From: Chromatiales bacterium
GTDB taxonomy: Bacteria > Pseudomonadota > Gammaproteobacteria > SZUA-152
Length of the DNA stretch: 55,004 bases
NCBI GenBank assembly: GCA_026982475.1
Contig: JALSHB010000104.1
Coordinates: 1-55,004, forward strand
Direction: 5' to 3'
Below are positions 17,214 through 49,310 of this stretch, one piece after another. Position 1 is the first letter of the stretch. Each line of letters opens with the position of its first letter. Both the position numbers and the translations under genes were made by a program. Under the pieces are notes generated by a model. It did not search any database. It worked only from the letters and a program-made list of their open reading frames with translations, and had not been told where the DNA came from.

Positions 17214-18419
17214 TCAAAACAACTCCACGTCGCTCTCATCCATGTTCTGCTGGTGGATAGGAGACCTTTCGAGCATCTCCGCCGACTCGTCAAAATTCAT
17301 CCGTAACCGGGCAAGCCGCTCCTGCAGCTGCCGCTCGATCTCCGTGCCCTCATCCGACAACAACCCCGACCGCAAGCCATCCACCGTATCGAGAAATTCA
17401 TGAAAGGCCTGCAGCCGCTTGCGCATGTGGTCGAGCAACTGCCGGGTCATGTCCTCGAATTGCAGTGAGCGCACGGCAATGGCCACATTCTGGCCGATTT
17501 CTTCGGACATGCCCGAGACCTCACGCAGCTGGTCCACCATGCCAGCATTGATATTCGTCACTTCCTGCATCAATTCCGCCACGCGATCCTTGGAACTCAA
17601 GGTCATTTCCATGTCACGCGAGGCCATGCGCGCGACAATGACACTGGCCTGATCCATGCTGTCACGCGTCTTGGCATATTCGGCGCGAATCTGGCCGCTG
17701 AATTCATTGCTGCGCAGGGACAGCGCACGCACCTCATCGGCCACCACCGCAAAACCCCGGCCCGCCTCGCCGGCGCGGGCGGCCTCGATGGCCGCATTCA
17801 AGGCCAACAGGTTGGTCTGCGAGCTGATGCCATCGATCTCGCCAAGCATTTTCTCCACGGTGCTGATCTGGTCCTTCATCTCGATGAACACATCGACCAT
17901 TTCGGCGCTACCATCACGCATGGCGACAATGCTTTCGACGAACATCTGCACCAGTTCCGCCGCTTCACTGGCGAGGGTGCTGATGCCGGAGCCATCACCG
18001 GTCGTCTCCGCCACACGCGCCACCAAGGCGTGCGTCAACGCCTCCTGGTCACGGGACTGCCTTTCCAGCCCGGCAAAGCTCTGCATCAAGCCGCTGATGG
18101 CATCCCCCTGCAGGCTCTGCACCTGCTGCAATTCCCGGTCCAGGTGAGCAAATTGCCGCTCCATCTCCTCGGCGGAGCGCTGCATGAGCTGCTGAAAGTC
18201 TTCTCGCAGGCGGGTGGAAACGTGCAATTCCTTGTCGGCCTGCGCCTCCCGCGCCGCCTGCCGCCGGCCCAGTTGACGCACGTGCGCCAGCCACACTCCG
18301 CTCAACCCCACCAGCAGCGCATACGCCACCATCTGCCCGGGCCAGAGCCAGAGCACCCCGGTGGCGGGCAAGAGGAGAAAACCCGGCCAGTAAGTGCGCA
18401 TCCATGAATCTTTTGTCAT
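17214..18419 (-). CDS. Methyl-accepting chemotaxis protein without periplasmic sensor
   Basis: A 401-residue chemoreceptor. One or two hydrophobic segments near the N terminus ([16 protein letters not shown] and [17 protein letters not shown]) anchor it with essentially no periplasmic domain between them, followed by a long coiled coil. The cytoplasmic hairpin tip is canonical: [36 protein letters not shown]. The C-terminal part carries [14 protein letters not shown], a motif seen in HAMP-less chemoreceptors, and no NWETF-like pentapeptide for CheR. It heads an operon with a CheY-like regulator and two kinases. It may sense a cytoplasmic or membrane-energy signal and might not act on motility at all (inference). 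Confidence 0.9.
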
Positions 18420-42179: not shown

Positions 42180-42202
42180 TTTTGAATCCCTCTTTCAAGA
42201 TC

Positions 42203-42313
42203 CAACGCAAAGGCGCGAAGGCGCAAAGATCGCAAAGATCGCAAAGATCGCAAAGTCTTTTTATGAAAATATTTGCTTTGCGTCCTTTGCGCCTTCGCGC
42301 CTTTGCGTTGAAA
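42203..42313. repeat. Long inverted-repeat element G (CGCAAAG type, expanded)
   Basis: Left arm 42203-42255 begins CAACGCAAAGGCGCGAAGGC and contains three tandem copies of the octamer AAAGATCG-like unit. Right arm 42277-42313 is TTTGCGTCCTTTGCGCCTTC onward. The unequal number of units in the two arms shows expansion by slippage. It lies between leuB and asd. Confidence 0.75.
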
Positions 42314-42324
42314 GCATTTCATCA

Positions 42325-43395
42325 TTAAAGCGCCGCCACCACGGCATCGCCCATCTCACGGGTGGAGACCCGACGGGTACCCTCGCTGTGGATGTCGGCG
42401 GTGCGCAGGCCGTCGTCGAGCACCCGCTCCACCGCCTGCTCGATGCGCTCGGCCATGGCTGGCTCGTCCAGGGAGTAGCGCAGCATCATGGCAACAGACA
42501 GAATCGTCGCCAGCGGGTTGGCCACGTTCTGCCCGGCGATGTCCGGCGCGGAGCCGTGGATGGGTTCGTACATGCCACGGCCAGCGGCGTCCAGCGAGGC
42601 CGAGGGCAGCATGCCGATGGAACCGGTGAGCATGGCGGCGCAGTCGGAGAGGATGTCGCCGAACATGTTGGTGGTGACCATCACGTCGAACTGCTTGGGC
42701 GCGCGCACCAGTTGCATGGCGGCATTGTCCACGTACATGTGCGACAGTTCCACCTCGGGGTAGTCCCTGGCCACCCGCTCCATCACCTCGCGCCACAGCT
42801 CGGTGCACTCCAGCACGTTGGCCTTGTCCACGGAGCAGACCCGCTTGCCGCGTTTCATGGCGATGTCGAAGGCGGAGCGGCCGATACGCTCGATCTCCGA
42901 CTCGGCATAGACCAGGGTGTTGAAGCCCTGGCGCTCGCCGTTGTCCAGGGTGCGCACGCCGCGCGGCTGGCCGAAATAGATGCCGCCGGTGAGTTCGCGC
43001 ACGATCATGATGTCCAGCCCGGCCACCACCTCCGGCTTGAGGGTGGAGGCCTCGGCCAACTGCTGGTAGAGGATCGCCGGGCGCAGGTTGGAGAACAATT
43101 CCAGTTCGGAGCGCAGGCCCAGCAGGCCCTTCTCCGGGCGCACGCTGATGTCCAGCGACTCCCACTTGTAGCCACCCACAGCACCGAGCAGGATGGCGTC
43201 CGAGCCTTTGGCCAGTTCCAGCGTCTCCCCCGGCAGCGGCGTGCCGTGCACATCGTAGGCCGCACCACCCACCAGGCCCTCTTCCAGCTCGACGTCAAGG
43301 CCATCGGCGCGCAGACGCTCCAGCACCTTCACCGCCTCATTGACGATCTCCGGGCCAATGCCGTCACCGGCCAGTACTGCAATCTTCTTGGTCAT
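42325..43395 (-). CDS. leuB: 3-isopropylmalate dehydrogenase
   Basis: A 356-residue NAD-dependent decarboxylating dehydrogenase of leucine synthesis. N-terminal [23 protein letters not shown], the substrate-binding arginines around [21 protein letters not shown], and the signature [25 protein letters not shown] identify it. The ATG at 43395 starts the family homology; the longer frame reads into repeat H. leuC-leuD-leuB-asd are codirectional, though the intergenic gaps are filled with repeats. Confidence 0.95.
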
Positions 43396-43422
43396 CAGTC
43401 GATATCCTCGCTTAAAAAAATC

Positions 43423-43518
43423 CAACGCAAAGACGCGAAGGCGCAAAGGACACAAAGGCTTTGTTTTCAAAAAACCTTCTCTGCGCCCTCTGCGGCTTTG
43501 CGCCTTTGCGTTGAAAAA
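43423..43518. repeat. Long inverted-repeat element H (CGCAAAG type)
   Basis: Left arm 43423-43460 begins CAACGCAAAGACGCGAAGGC; right arm 43477-43518 is CTTCTCTGCGCCCTCTGCGG onward to GCGTTGAAAAA. The loop GGCTTTGTTTTCAAAAAACC is AT-rich. Nearly identical to element I 80 bp further on. Confidence 0.78.
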
Positions 43519-43597
43519 GATTCATCATCAAAACGCCGCTATCGCCCTGCCGCAATCTTCAGCAGCCCAGCAAACCTTTCTCCGCCCCCTTCAAAGT

Positions 43598-43694
43598 CCA
43601 ACGCAAAGACGCGAAGGCGCAAAGGACGCAAAGGCTTTGTTTTCAAAAAACCTTCTCTGCGCCCTCTGCGACTTTGCGCCTTTGCGTTGAAAAA
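43598..43694. repeat. Long inverted-repeat element I, duplicate of H
   Basis: Over about 95 bp this differs from element H at only a few positions (for example GACGCAAAGG for GACACAAAGG, CTGCGACTTT for CTGCGGCTTT). The pair fills the 300-bp leuD-leuB gap together with 80 bp of non-repeat sequence, where no gene is seen. Confidence 0.78.
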
Positions 43695-43695
43695 A

Positions 43696-44334
43696 TCACG
43701 CAAACAACCACGGCGCCTCGCGGCGGCGGCGGTCTTCGTAGGCGCGGATGTCGTCCACGTGCTGCAGGGTCAGGCCGATGTCGTCGAGGCCATTGAGCAG
43801 GCAGTATTTGCGGAACTCGTCCACCGCGAAGGGGATCTCCTCGCCACCGGGGGTGGTGATGGTCTGCGCCGCCAGGTCCACCGTCAGCCGGTAGCCTTCG
43901 CTGGCCGCCACTTCCCTGAACAGGCGATCCACCGTCTGTTCATCGAGGACGATGGGCAGGATGCTGTTCTTGAAACAGTTGTTGAAGAAGATGTCGGCGA
44001 AGCTCGGCGCGATGATGACGCGGAAGCCGTAGTCCAGCAACGCCCAGGGGGCGTGCTCGCGCGAGGAGCCGCAGCCGAAGTTCTCGCGTGCGAGCAATAT
44101 GCTGGCGCCCTGATAGCGCGGCTGGTTGAGCACGAAGTCCGGGTTCAGCGGCCGCTGGCTGTTGTCCATGCCCGGTTCGCCCACGTCGAGGTAACGCCAC
44201 TCGTCGAACAGGTTGGGACCGAAGCCCGTGCGCTGGATGGACTTGAGAAACTGCTTGGGGATGATGGCGTCGGTGTCCACGTTGGCGCGGTCCATGGGCG
44301 CCACGATGCCCGTTACCTTGTCAAATTTTTCCAT
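43696..44334 (-). CDS. leuD: 3-isopropylmalate dehydratase small subunit
   Basis: A 212-residue swivel-domain subunit of isopropylmalate isomerase. Typical blocks are [31 protein letters not shown] at the N terminus and [45 protein letters not shown] in the middle. It begins 95 bp downstream of leuC, with element J between. The TCA stop is only 2 bp from element I. Confidence 0.95.
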
Positions 44335-44352
44335 TGTTCAACTCCGCATAGG

Positions 44353-44432
44353 AAACGCAAAGTTCGCAAAGACGCAGAGGACGCAATATAAAAAACCTTT
44401 GCGTTCTTTGCGTCTTTGCGTCCTTTGCGTTA
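44353..44432. repeat. Long inverted-repeat element J (CGCAAAG type)
   Basis: Left arm 44353-44386 begins AAACGCAAAGTTCGCAAAGA; right arm 44396-44432 ends TCCTTTGCGTTAA. The right arm reaches the leuC stop codon (TAA at 44430-44432), so the element abuts or has been captured at the end of leuC. Confidence 0.76.
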
Positions 44433-45854
44433 ATTCTCAAACTCTCTCACATCCACGAAACACCCCGTGACCGCTGCCGCGGCGGCCATGGCCGGGCTCA
44501 CCAGGTGGGTGCGCCCGCCGGCGCCCTGGCGGCCTTCGAAGTTGCGGTTGGAGGTGGAGGCGCAGCGCTCGCCGGGCGCCAGGCGGTCGGCGTTCATGGC
44601 CAGGCACATGGAGCAGCCGGGCTCGCGCCATTCGAAGCCGGCTTCGATGAAGAGACGGTCCAGCCCCTCTTCCTCGGCCTGCCTTTTCACCAGCCCGGAG
44701 CCGGGCACCACCAGGGCCTGTTTGACGTTGTCCGCCACCTTGCGGCCGCGGGCCACGGCGGCGGCGGCGCGCAGGTCCTCGATGCGCGAGTTGGTGCAGG
44801 AGCCGATGAACACCTTGTCCACCGTGATCTCGGTGATGGGCGTGCCGGCGCTCAATCCCATGTAGTCGAGGGCGCGGCGCATGCCCTCGGCCTTCACCGG
44901 GTCGCTCTCGGCGGCGGGGTCGGGCACGCGCCCGCCCACGGGGACCACCATTTCCGGTGAGGTGCCCCAGGTCACCTGGGGCTGGATGGTCGCGGCGTCG
45001 ATCACCACCTCGCGGTCGAACACCGCGTCGTCGTCGGAGCGCAGCTCGCGCCAGGCGGCCACCGCCTGCGCCCACAGCTCGGGGCCCGGGGCGAAGGGCC
45101 GGCCCTTCACGTAGTCGATGGTCTTCTCGTCCACCGCCACCATGCCGGCGCGGGCGCCCGCCTCGATGGCCATGTTGCACACCGTCATGCGGCCCTCGAT
45201 GGACAGGTCGCGGATCGCCTGGCCGGCGAACTCGATGGCGTAGCCGGTGCCGCCGGCGGTGCCGATCTCACCGATGATGGCGAGCACGATGTCCTTGGCG
45301 GTGACGCCGGGACCCACCTTGCCATCGATCACCACGCGCATGTTCTTCGACTTGCTCTGGATCAGGCACTGGGTGGCGAGCACGTGCTCCACCTCGGAGG
45401 TGCCGATGCCGTGCGCCAGGGCGCCCAGCGCCCCGTGGGTGGAGGTGTGGGAGTCGCCGCACACCACGGTCATGCCCGGCAGGGTGGCGCCCTCCTCCGG
45501 TCCCACCACGTGCACGATGCCCTGGCGCGGGTCGTTGATGGAAAATTCGGGGATGGCGAACTCGGCGCAGTTGCGGTCCAGGGTCTGCACCTGCAGACGC
45601 GCCACCGGGTCACTGATGCTGTCGACACCACCGCGGCGGTCGTCGGGCGTGGTGGGCACGTTGTGGTCCGGGGTGGCCAGGTTGGCGTCGCTGCGCCACG
45701 GCCTGCGCCCGGCCAGGCGCAGGCCCTCGAAGGCCTGCGGGCTGGTCACTTCGTGGATCAGCTGCCGGTCTATATAAAGAAGACAGGTGCCGTCGTCCTG
45801 GGTGCGCACCACGTGCTGCTCCCACAATTTGTCGTAAAGAGTCTTGCCGGCCAT
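44430..45854 (-). CDS. leuC: 3-isopropylmalate dehydratase large subunit
   Basis: A 474-residue aconitase-family subunit that isomerises 2- and 3-isopropylmalate with LeuD. Fe-S cluster cysteines appear in [16 protein letters not shown] and [41 protein letters not shown] is also diagnostic. The ATG at 45854 (GAGG upstream) starts [15 protein letters not shown], the family N terminus. It is the first gene of the leuCDB-asd run and is divergent from a LysR regulator, as often seen for leu operons. Confidence 0.95.
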
Positions 45855-46956: not shown

Positions 46957-47691
46957 ATGAGCCAGCTCGTCGTCAACGGAAACAACATCGATCTCACCGC
47001 CAGCGGACGCCTGGCCAACCTCGCGGACTGGACACCCGAACTCGCCGAGGCCATCGCCAACAACGAAGGTCTGACGCTGAGCGACGCCCACTGGGACATC
47101 ATCAATCTGATGCGCGATTATTACGCCACCTACAACATCCCGCCCATCCTCAAGCTGCTGAAGCGTGAAGTCGCCCGAAAGTTCGGCCCCGAGCGCGCCA
47201 CCGACGCGGCCTTCAACGCCCTGTTTCCCGGCGGCGTGAGCCATCAGGGCACCCGCATCGCCGGCCTGCCGGTCCCCATGCTGGACGCGGAGCGGGAGCA
47301 AAGCAGCCAGGTGAGAAGGACCACGCCGCAGGCCAGCACGCCCCACTACCGCGACAGCTTCGAGTTCAAGGGCCGGCAGATCAAGGTCTACCCCAGCGGC
47401 AACCTGGTCAACCTCGAGGACTGGAACGAGGAACTGGCCGAGCAGCTGGCCAAAAAGGAAGGCATCGAACTGACGGACGCGCACTGGGTGGTGCTGCGCT
47501 ATCTGCGCAAGTTCTATTTCCAGTACGGCATCACGCCGATGGTGAAGATACTGATGAAGCACATGGGCGAAGAACTGGGCAAGGACGCCAGCGACCGCGA
47601 CACGCTCTACCGCCTGTTCCCCGGCGGCCCCTCTCGCCAGGGCTCCCGCATCGCCGGCCTGCCGGTGCCGCAGGGTTGCATCGACGACTGA
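46957..47691 (+). CDS. Tandem two-domain TusE/DsrC family protein
   Basis: A 244-residue protein made of two TusE/DsrC domains. Domain 1 (about 1-110) and domain 2 (about 130-244) each show the family order: LADW/LEDW segment, LTDAHW helix, YYATYNIPPI / FYFQYGITPM and a C-terminal arm with LFPGG and AGLPVP. Single-domain family members are about 105-115 residues. The functional C-terminal cysteine is retained only in domain 2 (PQGC, Cys241); domain 1 ends AGLPVPM with no cysteine. The second DsrC cysteine position reads Ser or Thr in both arms (QGTRIAG, QGSRIAG). It therefore resembles a TusE-type sulfur carrier with one active arm rather than a DsrC trisulfide protein (inference). A strong terminator follows. 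Confidence 0.85.
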   Translation: MSQLVVNGNNIDLTASGRLANLADWTPELAEAIANNEGLTLSDAHWDIINLMRDYYATYNIPPILKLLKREVARKFGPERATDAAFNALFPGGVSHQGTRIAGLPVPMLDAEREQSSQVRRTTPQASTPHYRDSFEFKGRQIKVYPSGNLVNLEDWNEELAEQLAKKEGIELTDAHWVVLRYLRKFYFQYGITPMVKILMKHMGEELGKDASDRDTLYRLFPGGPSRQGSRIAGLPVPQGCIDD

Positions 47692-47857: not shown

Positions 47858-48523
47858 GTGGTCAGACAAACACAACATCCCCCCGCCTTCGTGATTGCCG
47901 CCATGCTGGCCGGACATCTGTTTCGCATGATGCGCACCGCCAAGCTCATGTCGCTGAGCGCCAGCAACGCCAAGGGCGTGGCGGCGCGGGCCGGCGACAA
48001 GGCGCTGGGCTTCCGGCCGATCACGGATTTCATCGCCGAAATGGCCAACGACACCATTCATTATGCCACCAAGATCAACAACCTGGCGCTGACGGTATCG
48101 CGCACCGCGGTGGCCGATCTGCGCGCCCTGGACGGCGCGCGCCGCTTTGCCGAGGCCCGCGCGCAGATCGACGACAGCGGACAGGCGGCCTTCATCGATC
48201 GGCTGATCCACCAGGCCGACGAGGAGCGCGCGGTCATGCACGCCGAGACCGCCGAGATCATGACCCAGCTCAACGCCCAGCTGGACGAGATCCATCAGCG
48301 GGTGCGCGGCTCGACCATCATCGTCAGCAATTCACGCACCGAGGCGTCCCGCGCCGGCGAGTTTCAGAAATACCTCGACTCCATTGCCGACAGCGTGGAA
48401 CGGTCGGCGCACGACATTCAGCGCGAGATCAGCAAATGCCGCAAGCTCATCGAGTCCCTCGACGGGCTGGATGAAAACGGCCACGGCACCCCGGATTACC
48501 GACTGCGAACAGGCACCTCATGA
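47858..48523 (+). CDS. Soluble chemoreceptor-tip-like protein, partner of ODP
   Basis: A 221-residue, mostly helical protein without a clear membrane segment beyond a mildly hydrophobic start. Residues around 31-62 (MSLSASNAKGVAARAGDKALGFRPITDFIAE) resemble the chemoreceptor hairpin tip ([26 protein letters not shown]), with the NA, AARAG and GF landmarks kept but most CheA/CheW-contact residues changed. Flanking coiled-coil heptads continue on both sides. A GTG at 47858 is the start used. The stop overlaps the next gene by 4 bp (ATGA), which ties it to the oxygen-binding diiron protein. It may be a degenerate receptor that relays an oxygen or redox signal (inference). Confidence 0.65.
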   Translation: MVRQTQHPPAFVIAAMLAGHLFRMMRTAKLMSLSASNAKGVAARAGDKALGFRPITDFIAEMANDTIHYATKINNLALTVSRTAVADLRALDGARRFAEARAQIDDSGQAAFIDRLIHQADEERAVMHAETAEIMTQLNAQLDEIHQRVRGSTIIVSNSRTEASRAGEFQKYLDSIADSVERSAHDIQREISKCRKLIESLDGLDENGHGTPDYRLRTGTS

Positions 48524-49251
48524 AGACGACAAACCTCTACAACAAAGGCCACCGCTGGGTCACCTTCGGCCGCGACCCGAAAAAGCTGCACGGCATCATC
48601 GATACCAATCAGTACATGATCATCGATGGCCAGCGCGCCCTGCTCATGGACCCGGGTGGCATCGAGGTCTTTTCCGCCATGCTGGCCTCGGTGCTGCGCC
48701 TGTGCGACATCGACACCATCACCGACATCTTCGCCTCGCACCAGGACCCGGACATCATTTCCTCCCTGGGCCTGTGGGACCAGACCCTGCCCACCGCCCG
48801 CCTGCACGCGCCGTGGATCTGGGAAAGCTTCCTGCGCCACTTCGGCCTCAATCACATCGAATACGTCGGCATTCCCGACGAAGGCAAGACCCTGGCGCTG
48901 GAATCGGTGGAGGTGCGTTTCATCCCCGCCCACTACCTGCATGCCTCGGGCAACTACCACGTCTATGACCCCGAGGCGCGCATCCTCATGAGCGGCGACG
49001 TGGGCGCGGCCCTGGAGGCCGACGGCGCGCCCATGTTCGTGGAAGACTTCGACGAGCATGTCGACAAGATGAAGCTGTTCCACCAACGCTGGATGCCCTC
49101 CAACCGCGCCAAGAACGACTGGATAAAACGGGTGCGCGAACTGGACATCGAGATGATGGCGCCACAGCACGGCCGCATCTTCCGCGGCGACGACGTCAAG
49201 CGCTTCCTCGACTGGTTCGAGGCCCTGGAGGTGGGCAGCGCCATTGGCTAG
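48520..49251 (+). CDS. ODP-type diiron oxygen-binding protein (MBL fold)
   Basis: A 243-residue metallo-beta-lactamase-fold protein of the type described as oxygen-binding diiron protein (ODP), related to flavodiiron proteins but without a flavodoxin domain. Ligand candidates are His74, Asp76 and Asp78 (FASHQDPDII), His138/His141 (PAHYLHASGN), Asp160 (LMSGDVGA) and His217 (PQHGRIF). The SHQDPD variant replaces the HxExDH motif of catalytic relatives, as expected for a sensor. Known ODPs act with chemotaxis proteins; here the upstream overlapping gene is chemoreceptor-like, supporting a two-component oxygen or iron sensor. The coding region ends inside the 58-bp hairpin at 49248-49305. Confidence 0.85.
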   Translation: MKTTNLYNKGHRWVTFGRDPKKLHGIIDTNQYMIIDGQRALLMDPGGIEVFSAMLASVLRLCDIDTITDIFASHQDPDIISSLGLWDQTLPTARLHAPWIWESFLRHFGLNHIEYVGIPDEGKTLALESVEVRFIPAHYLHASGNYHVYDPEARILMSGDVGAALEADGAPMFVEDFDEHVDKMKLFHQRWMPSNRAKNDWIKRVRELDIEMMAPQHGRIFRGDDVKRFLDWFEALEVGSAIG

Positions 49252-49305
49252 TGCACTGCAACGAATGAAATGCACATTCACATTTTATTCGTTACAGTAC
49301 ACTAG
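49248..49305 (-). terminator. 25-bp stem hairpin between ODP and cytochrome genes
   Basis: Left arm 49248-49272 begins CTAGTGCACTGCAACGAATG; right arm 49281-49305 is nearly complementary with three mismatches. In a plus-strand transcript these are C-A mismatches, but in a minus-strand transcript all three become G-U pairs, giving an unbroken 25-bp stem around an 8-nt loop. It follows the cytochrome gene on the minus strand and overlaps the stop of the ODP gene on the other. Confidence 0.6.
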
Positions 49306-49310
49306 ACCAC

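Follow-up and report, generated by a model that had tools for sequence, protein, structure and literature searches.

A single-chain, double-tip chemoreceptor relative encoded with an oxygen-binding diiron protein is probably a stripped-down oxygen input for chemotaxis arrays

Introduction

Two overlapping genes in a 55,004-nucleotide stretch of DNA from a Chromatiales bacterium (the window) raise the question of how a soluble oxygen-binding protein might be wired into a chemosensory system. An earlier note, made by a model from the sequence alone, described the upstream product as a degenerate chemoreceptor tip that has lost its sensing domain and most kinase-contact residues, and the downstream product as an ODP, an oxygen-binding diiron protein whose state the upstream protein would read. 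We ask here what the upstream protein is, whether it belongs with ODP, and what the pair might do.

Results

The features of the pair are collected in Table 1. Both open reading frames are intact and share an ATGA, as the earlier note had it, and this overlap of stop and start recurs in many relatives. Both genes are under purifying selection, with dN/dS values among near relatives of 0.10-0.26 for the upstream gene and 0.04-0.13 for the ODP gene. A search for a sigma-70-like promoter found none. A palindrome-like 62-bp element lies just past the ODP stop (49246-49307), and pieces of it recur in the same genome on contigs C61 and C130. The gene upstream of the pair (46957-47691, + strand) encodes a member of the DsrC/TusE family that carries the DsrC domain twice in one chain, and only the second copy ends in the Cys-bearing GLPVPQGC tail. 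Gaps around leucine-synthesis genes at 42189-44437 hold interspersed repeats whose units, for example CAACGCAAAGACGCGAAGGCGCAAAGGACGCAAAG, also occur as reverse complements; they resemble a small mobile intergenic element.

Table 1. Features of the gene pair, in window coordinates. Partner residues follow a 219-residue numbering in which residue 1 is the codon at 47864; hhalign E-values are those of single comparisons.
Feature	Position	Strand	Details
Partner gene, single-chain double-tip chemoreceptor-like protein	47858..48523	+	221 aa, GTG start, TGA stop
ODP-family oxygen-binding diiron protein gene	48520..49251	+	243 aa; PF19583, PDB matches
ATGA stop/start overlap, partner gene / ODP gene	48520..48523	+	sequence
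First receptor-hairpin half	47903..48100	+	residues 14-79; hhalign 97.6%, E 3.9e-12, ungapped
Tip 1 motif SASNAKGVAARAGDKALGFRPIT	47957-48025	+	inside first hairpin half
Loop connecting the halves, at the end opposite the tips	48164..48178	+	residues 101-105; AlphaFold helix break 102-104
Second receptor-hairpin half	48260..48463	+	residues 133-200; hhalign 96.2%, E 2.3e-9, ungapped
Tip 2 motif VSNSRTEASRAGEFQKYLDSIA	48323-48388	+	inside second hairpin half; AlphaFold helix break at residue 164
SHQDPD diiron-site motif	48736..48753	+	residues 73-78; H74, D76, D78

To judge from its sequence, the downstream protein is beyond doubt a bona fide ODP. It matches PF19583 over model positions 1-194 of 194 at 5.4e-74 and 248.7 bits (gathering cut-off 27.2), and both ODPs in the PDB (6qrq and 6qnm) match it end to end, with E-values of 4e-62 and 1.5e-58. 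The SHQDPD motif, correctly named earlier as the diiron site, is accompanied by the remaining site residues H138/H141, D160 and H217 (motifs AHxxH, GD and QHG). These residues align with those of 6qrq and 6qnm and are kept across both of the ODP subgroups described below; in a 72-sequence alignment HQDPD is kept in at least 95% of each subgroup. The motif residues that act as ligands are assigned by analogy with the flavodiiron family.

Single-sequence matches of the upstream protein (hereafter the partner) are weak. Its match to PF00015 (MCPsignal) has an E-value of 6.3e-5 and 23.3 bits, under the gathering cut-off of 34.6, and assorted coiled-coil families also match, as would be the case if the likeness to receptor tips were a coiled-coil coincidence and the partner an unrelated helical bundle. 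This reading, which we find hardly credible, is largely refuted by profile comparisons. PF00015 is matched at E <= 0.01 by 22 of the 33 partner-family members (best 2e-9), and a profile of the partner's close relatives picks out soluble receptors of Thermotoga among PDB entries (4e-7), the best PDB sequence match of the partner itself being the soluble T. maritima chemoreceptor (3g6b, 3g67). In genome after genome, the family profile picks its own members first and ordinary MCPs directly after.

An initial sequence comparison had aligned two separate stretches of the partner to one and the same receptor tip. When the family alignment is split into halves and compared by hhalign with a profile of the window genome's own 16 MCPs, both halves fall on the same MCP columns. 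The real control is provided by shuffles: against the MCP profile, none of 100 shuffles that keep the heptad pattern exceeds 56% for the N-terminal half or 8% for the C-terminal half, reversed profiles of the halves give 0.4% and 3%, and the coil between the halves gives only 1-3% in the same tests. Compared with each other, the two halves match at 95.2% (shuffles at most 3.7%). Because both halves match the MCP tip and the matches vanish in the controls, we regard the partner as two diverged receptor tips in tandem. On the strength of these comparisons it is chemoreceptor-derived, with both hairpin halves homologous to the receptor tip. The NA..AARAG..GF landmarks on which the earlier note relied are thus real, and the lack of likeness to receptor hairpins that it had named as grounds for abandoning the idea is not what we find; the degenerate tip that it described is receptor-derived, but a second one in the same chain (SNSRTEASRAGEF, residues 155-167) had been missed.

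With two tips and four helices per chain, the partner departs from the MCP plan of one hairpin in a dimerising chain. Each tip is flanked by stretches of about 35 and 56 residues, after which the chain ends or turns; receptor methylation sites lie at least 80 residues away from a tip. A domain search of the partner found no other domain. The partner has neither a membrane span nor a sensing domain, HAMP or methylation helices, in keeping with the sensor-less protein first described.

The two tips are worn differently. In Tsr numbering, assigned by homology, tip 1 in the window's clade has N381 (100%), R388 (83%), G390 (100%), G395 (92%) and F396 (100%), has lost Glu385 (I/V), and carries K at 373, P at 398 and F at 402. 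Tip 2 in the same clade has E385 (83%), R388 (58%), E391 (88%) and A400 (100%), with Gly395 and Phe396 lost. Partners of the che-cluster clade can be nearer ordinary receptors, as with ALKALNAMLIARQSGESARGFQVVSGELRHF in genome G358. The supposed loss of most kinase-contact residues is therefore better described as selective wear than as simple stripping, and because the wear differs between the tips, it suggests that they divide labour. The asymmetric loss would also suit an array capper or jammer, one tip of which would insert into trimers of receptor dimers without CheA being activated, with ODP releasing or recruiting it by oxygen; a single chain could fix the facing of each tip, given the inner and outer roles known for receptor subunits (PMC4692393). 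The residue changes are open to several readings, however, and we consider this one quite improbable.

The AlphaFold model of the window partner is all-helical (pLDDT 86.7), with breaks at the loop, at residue 149 and at tip 2. DSSP gives no break at tip 1 in this model, one helix running from residue 8 to 101, and none of its fold matches passes an E-value of 0.001; a search of a viral fold library gave nothing useful. The model of the partner in the G358 che cluster (pLDDT 87, core mostly 95-98) has helices at 3-36, 38-94, 100-152 and 156-189, the breaks being tip 1, the loop and tip 2. In the PDB the folds closest to this model are antiparallel four-helix bundles built from one chain (6z0c_D, TM 0.54/0.66); its matches also include the cytoplasmic domain of Tsr, 1qu7. 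A long two-helix hairpin, as the window model without a tip 1 break might imply, is opposed by the breaks in the G358 model and by the four-helix-bundle matches. From the helix breaks, the fold matches and homology we infer U-turns at the tips, and the predicted shape is in effect that of the distal end of a receptor dimer made from one chain.

Going by the coordinates of ODP matches and by reconstructed genes, the partner lies directly upstream of ODP in 44 of 44 copies examined, from about 25 gammaproteobacterial families, and the pairing presumed in the earlier note is thus conserved. Of these copies, 31 come from 29 genomes in a class-wide sample of 369; the others come from relatives, from a phylum sample, in which family members occur in the same class only, and from two plasmids or chromids, of Pseudoalteromonas xiamenensis (pair WP_208844982.1 and WP_208844981.1) and Shewanella aestuarii. 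One copy is already annotated 'chemotaxis protein'. An apparent orphan partner in genome G472 is a gene-picking artefact, with ODP directly downstream. The ODPs that have a partner split from the 32 that have none without a single misplacement, with a branch support of only 0.43, and seven ODP residues (W13, D28, E49, L85, W191, K198 and V238) are diagnostic of the split (100% versus 0%). The window's ODP belongs to the subgroup with a partner. The partner and ODP trees correlate with r 0.93 (0 of 5000 permutations), to which shared descent contributes.

ODPs of another subgroup adjoin small proteins with the look of roadblock/LC7 domains (L091:2657-3037, L092:2480-2845, L080:335-703 and L089:3037-3510), which are possibly a different ODP signalling partner. 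Those at L091, L092 and L080, short proteins upstream of ODP that were considered as single-tip ancestors, are by eye of roadblock/LC7 type and not tips. We also note ODP-like domains fused to a GGDEF-type C-terminus in proteins of 600-690 aa (L097:2682-4760, L110:910-2715), which suggest direct oxygen control of c-di-GMP, and tandem ODP gene pairs (L107:2281-4069, L108:2163-3822).

The pair is also linked to chemotaxis genes. Every one of the 29 pair genomes in the class sample has CheA, compared with 186 of 369 in the sample as a whole (P 7e-10) and 31 of 42 genomes that have ODP without a partner (P 0.002), P values that overstate independence because the genomes are related to one another. 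Ten further pair genomes all have CheA, for a total of 39 of 39. At nine loci in eight families the pair lies in or beside a che cluster, a location that again speaks against a coiled-coil coincidence. The order in G181 is STAS-CheA-MCP-CheW-pair-CheR-CheD-CheB, with similar orders in G358, G248, G338, G111 and G194, CheW-pair-CheR being among those seen. G173 has CheY-CheZ-CheA-pair-MCP beside FliM, G378 has CheA-pair-MCP, and G270 has CheB-MCP-STAS near the pair. The nearby CheA and CheW that the earlier note had proposed looking for are therefore found in relatives, but no che genes lie beside the pair in the window or in most clade-A genomes.

Besides its MCPs, the window genome has two CheA matches, 11 CheW-domain matches and flagellin. 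The window itself encodes a short MCP (17214-18419, - strand) that is about 400 aa long and has a DVELF tail; it can be aligned end to end with the MCP beside the G270 (L134) pair, at 34.5% over 397 aa, and is similar to short MCPs in other pair-bearing che clusters.

Some pairs have other neighbours, namely Hpt-receiver-SpoIIE genes (L131:8205-9731) or STAS, HATPase and Hpt-hybrid-kinase genes (L134:4528-13278), hinting at a partner-switching output. The partner could accordingly be a receptor relic off the array, now a scaffold or regulator of ODP that passes the oxygen state to another output, such as an Hpt/receiver/SpoIIE-STAS switch or a hybrid kinase. The Hpt-REC-SpoIIE protein just upstream of the clade-A pair at L131, the flanking of the L134 pair by STAS, a HATPase protein and an Hpt hybrid kinase, the partial loss of canonical tip residues and the lack of che genes adjoining the window pair are all consistent with this. 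Nevertheless, we consider it unlikely, given CheA in all 39 pair genomes tested, the che-cluster position in eight families and the continued conservation of N381, G390, G395 and F396 in tip 1 and of E385 and E391 in tip 2.

Discussion

We consider it fairly likely that the two genes jointly encode a chemosensory input made of two proteins, the first of which arose as a receptor tip duplicated into one chain. Counting against this are the tip residues lost in the window's clade, the lack of neighbouring che genes in the window and most clade-A genomes, and the window model, with no break at tip 1 and no fold match passing an E-value of 0.001. Because the partner always adjoins ODP, often in chemotaxis clusters, the two together probably serve bacterial chemotaxis arrays as a pared-down oxygen input, and oxygen signalling is the function that we infer for it. 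Since a reduced tip has been duplicated into one chain, a single polypeptide would fold as the four-helix bundle that otherwise needs a receptor dimer, with both tips facing the same direction and a short loop at the far end. O2 would be bound by ODP at the diiron site, and ODP most likely senses oxygen (or iron), signalling through the double-tip partner to CheA in mixed arrays. Docking of ODP on the partner may change the partner's conformation or its occupancy at the CheA-CheW baseplate, and the array, built with full receptors, would report oxygen as a result. That the partner reads the oxygen-bound state of ODP, as was proposed in the earlier note, is plausible.

The two tips may reflect the different roles of the inner and outer dimer subunits in a trimer of dimers. 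A more specific form of this idea, which we put forward tentatively as a possibility that falls short of the likely, is that the partner is an asymmetric natural pseudo-dimer whose tips have specialised, one in receptor contacts and one in coupling to the kinase, and that a soluble O2-binding protein drives it in place of a ligand-binding domain; it would then be a minimal transducer that plugs a cytoplasmic gas sensor into many arrays. Identical subunits make the inner and outer receptor roles hard to study, and diverged natural tips would show which residues each needs. If the oxygen-input model is correct, about 200 receptor residues are enough to connect a soluble oxygen sensor to chemosensory clusters of very different kinds, and ODP-based oxygen sensing reaches beyond spirochaetes into about 25 gammaproteobacterial families.

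Several known systems share parts of this arrangement. Campylobacter CetA/CetB combines a PAS/flavin sensor with a membrane receptor that has an ordinary signalling domain, and contains neither ODP nor a double tip. Sensor and receptor are separate proteins there, as in the ODP-partner pair. A bipartite energy-taxis MCP is known in Campylobacter (PMC12442639). The T. maritima chemoreceptor (3g6b, 3g67) is likewise soluble, but has one intact canonical tip per chain.

The original report of the T. denticola ODP is that of Muok et al. (2019, PNAS). This ODP (TDE2498) is genetically coupled to TDE2496, an MCP homologue without transmembrane and sensing modules that is able to modulate CheA; when ODP is lost, the ordering of CheA in the arrays is affected (PMC7666581). 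The window pair is similar in that ODP is coupled to a sensor-less, membrane-less receptor. However, TDE2496 is a described MCP homologue, whereas the partner falls under the MCP cut-off, has two tips and leaves no room for methylation helices, and unlike in T. denticola the partner-paired ODPs here form a separate subgroup with diagnostic residues.

What is already known is ODP-receptor coupling and single-chain signalling domains, each separately; the literature searched describes no minimal double-tip protein confined to a single ODP subgroup, and the genomic survey of Muok et al. (2019) may include some such genes. Single-chain MCP signalling domains, described without an assigned role, occur naturally in R. 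centenum and a few other organisms, and have been engineered as Tsr~Tsr, which works; the inner and outer subunits of a receptor dimer differ in role (PMC4692393). Like the partner, these proteins carry two receptor units per polypeptide, and the natural ones are soluble. The partner differs in being reduced to two diverged tips and their surroundings, about 205 residues in all, and in being always paired with ODP.
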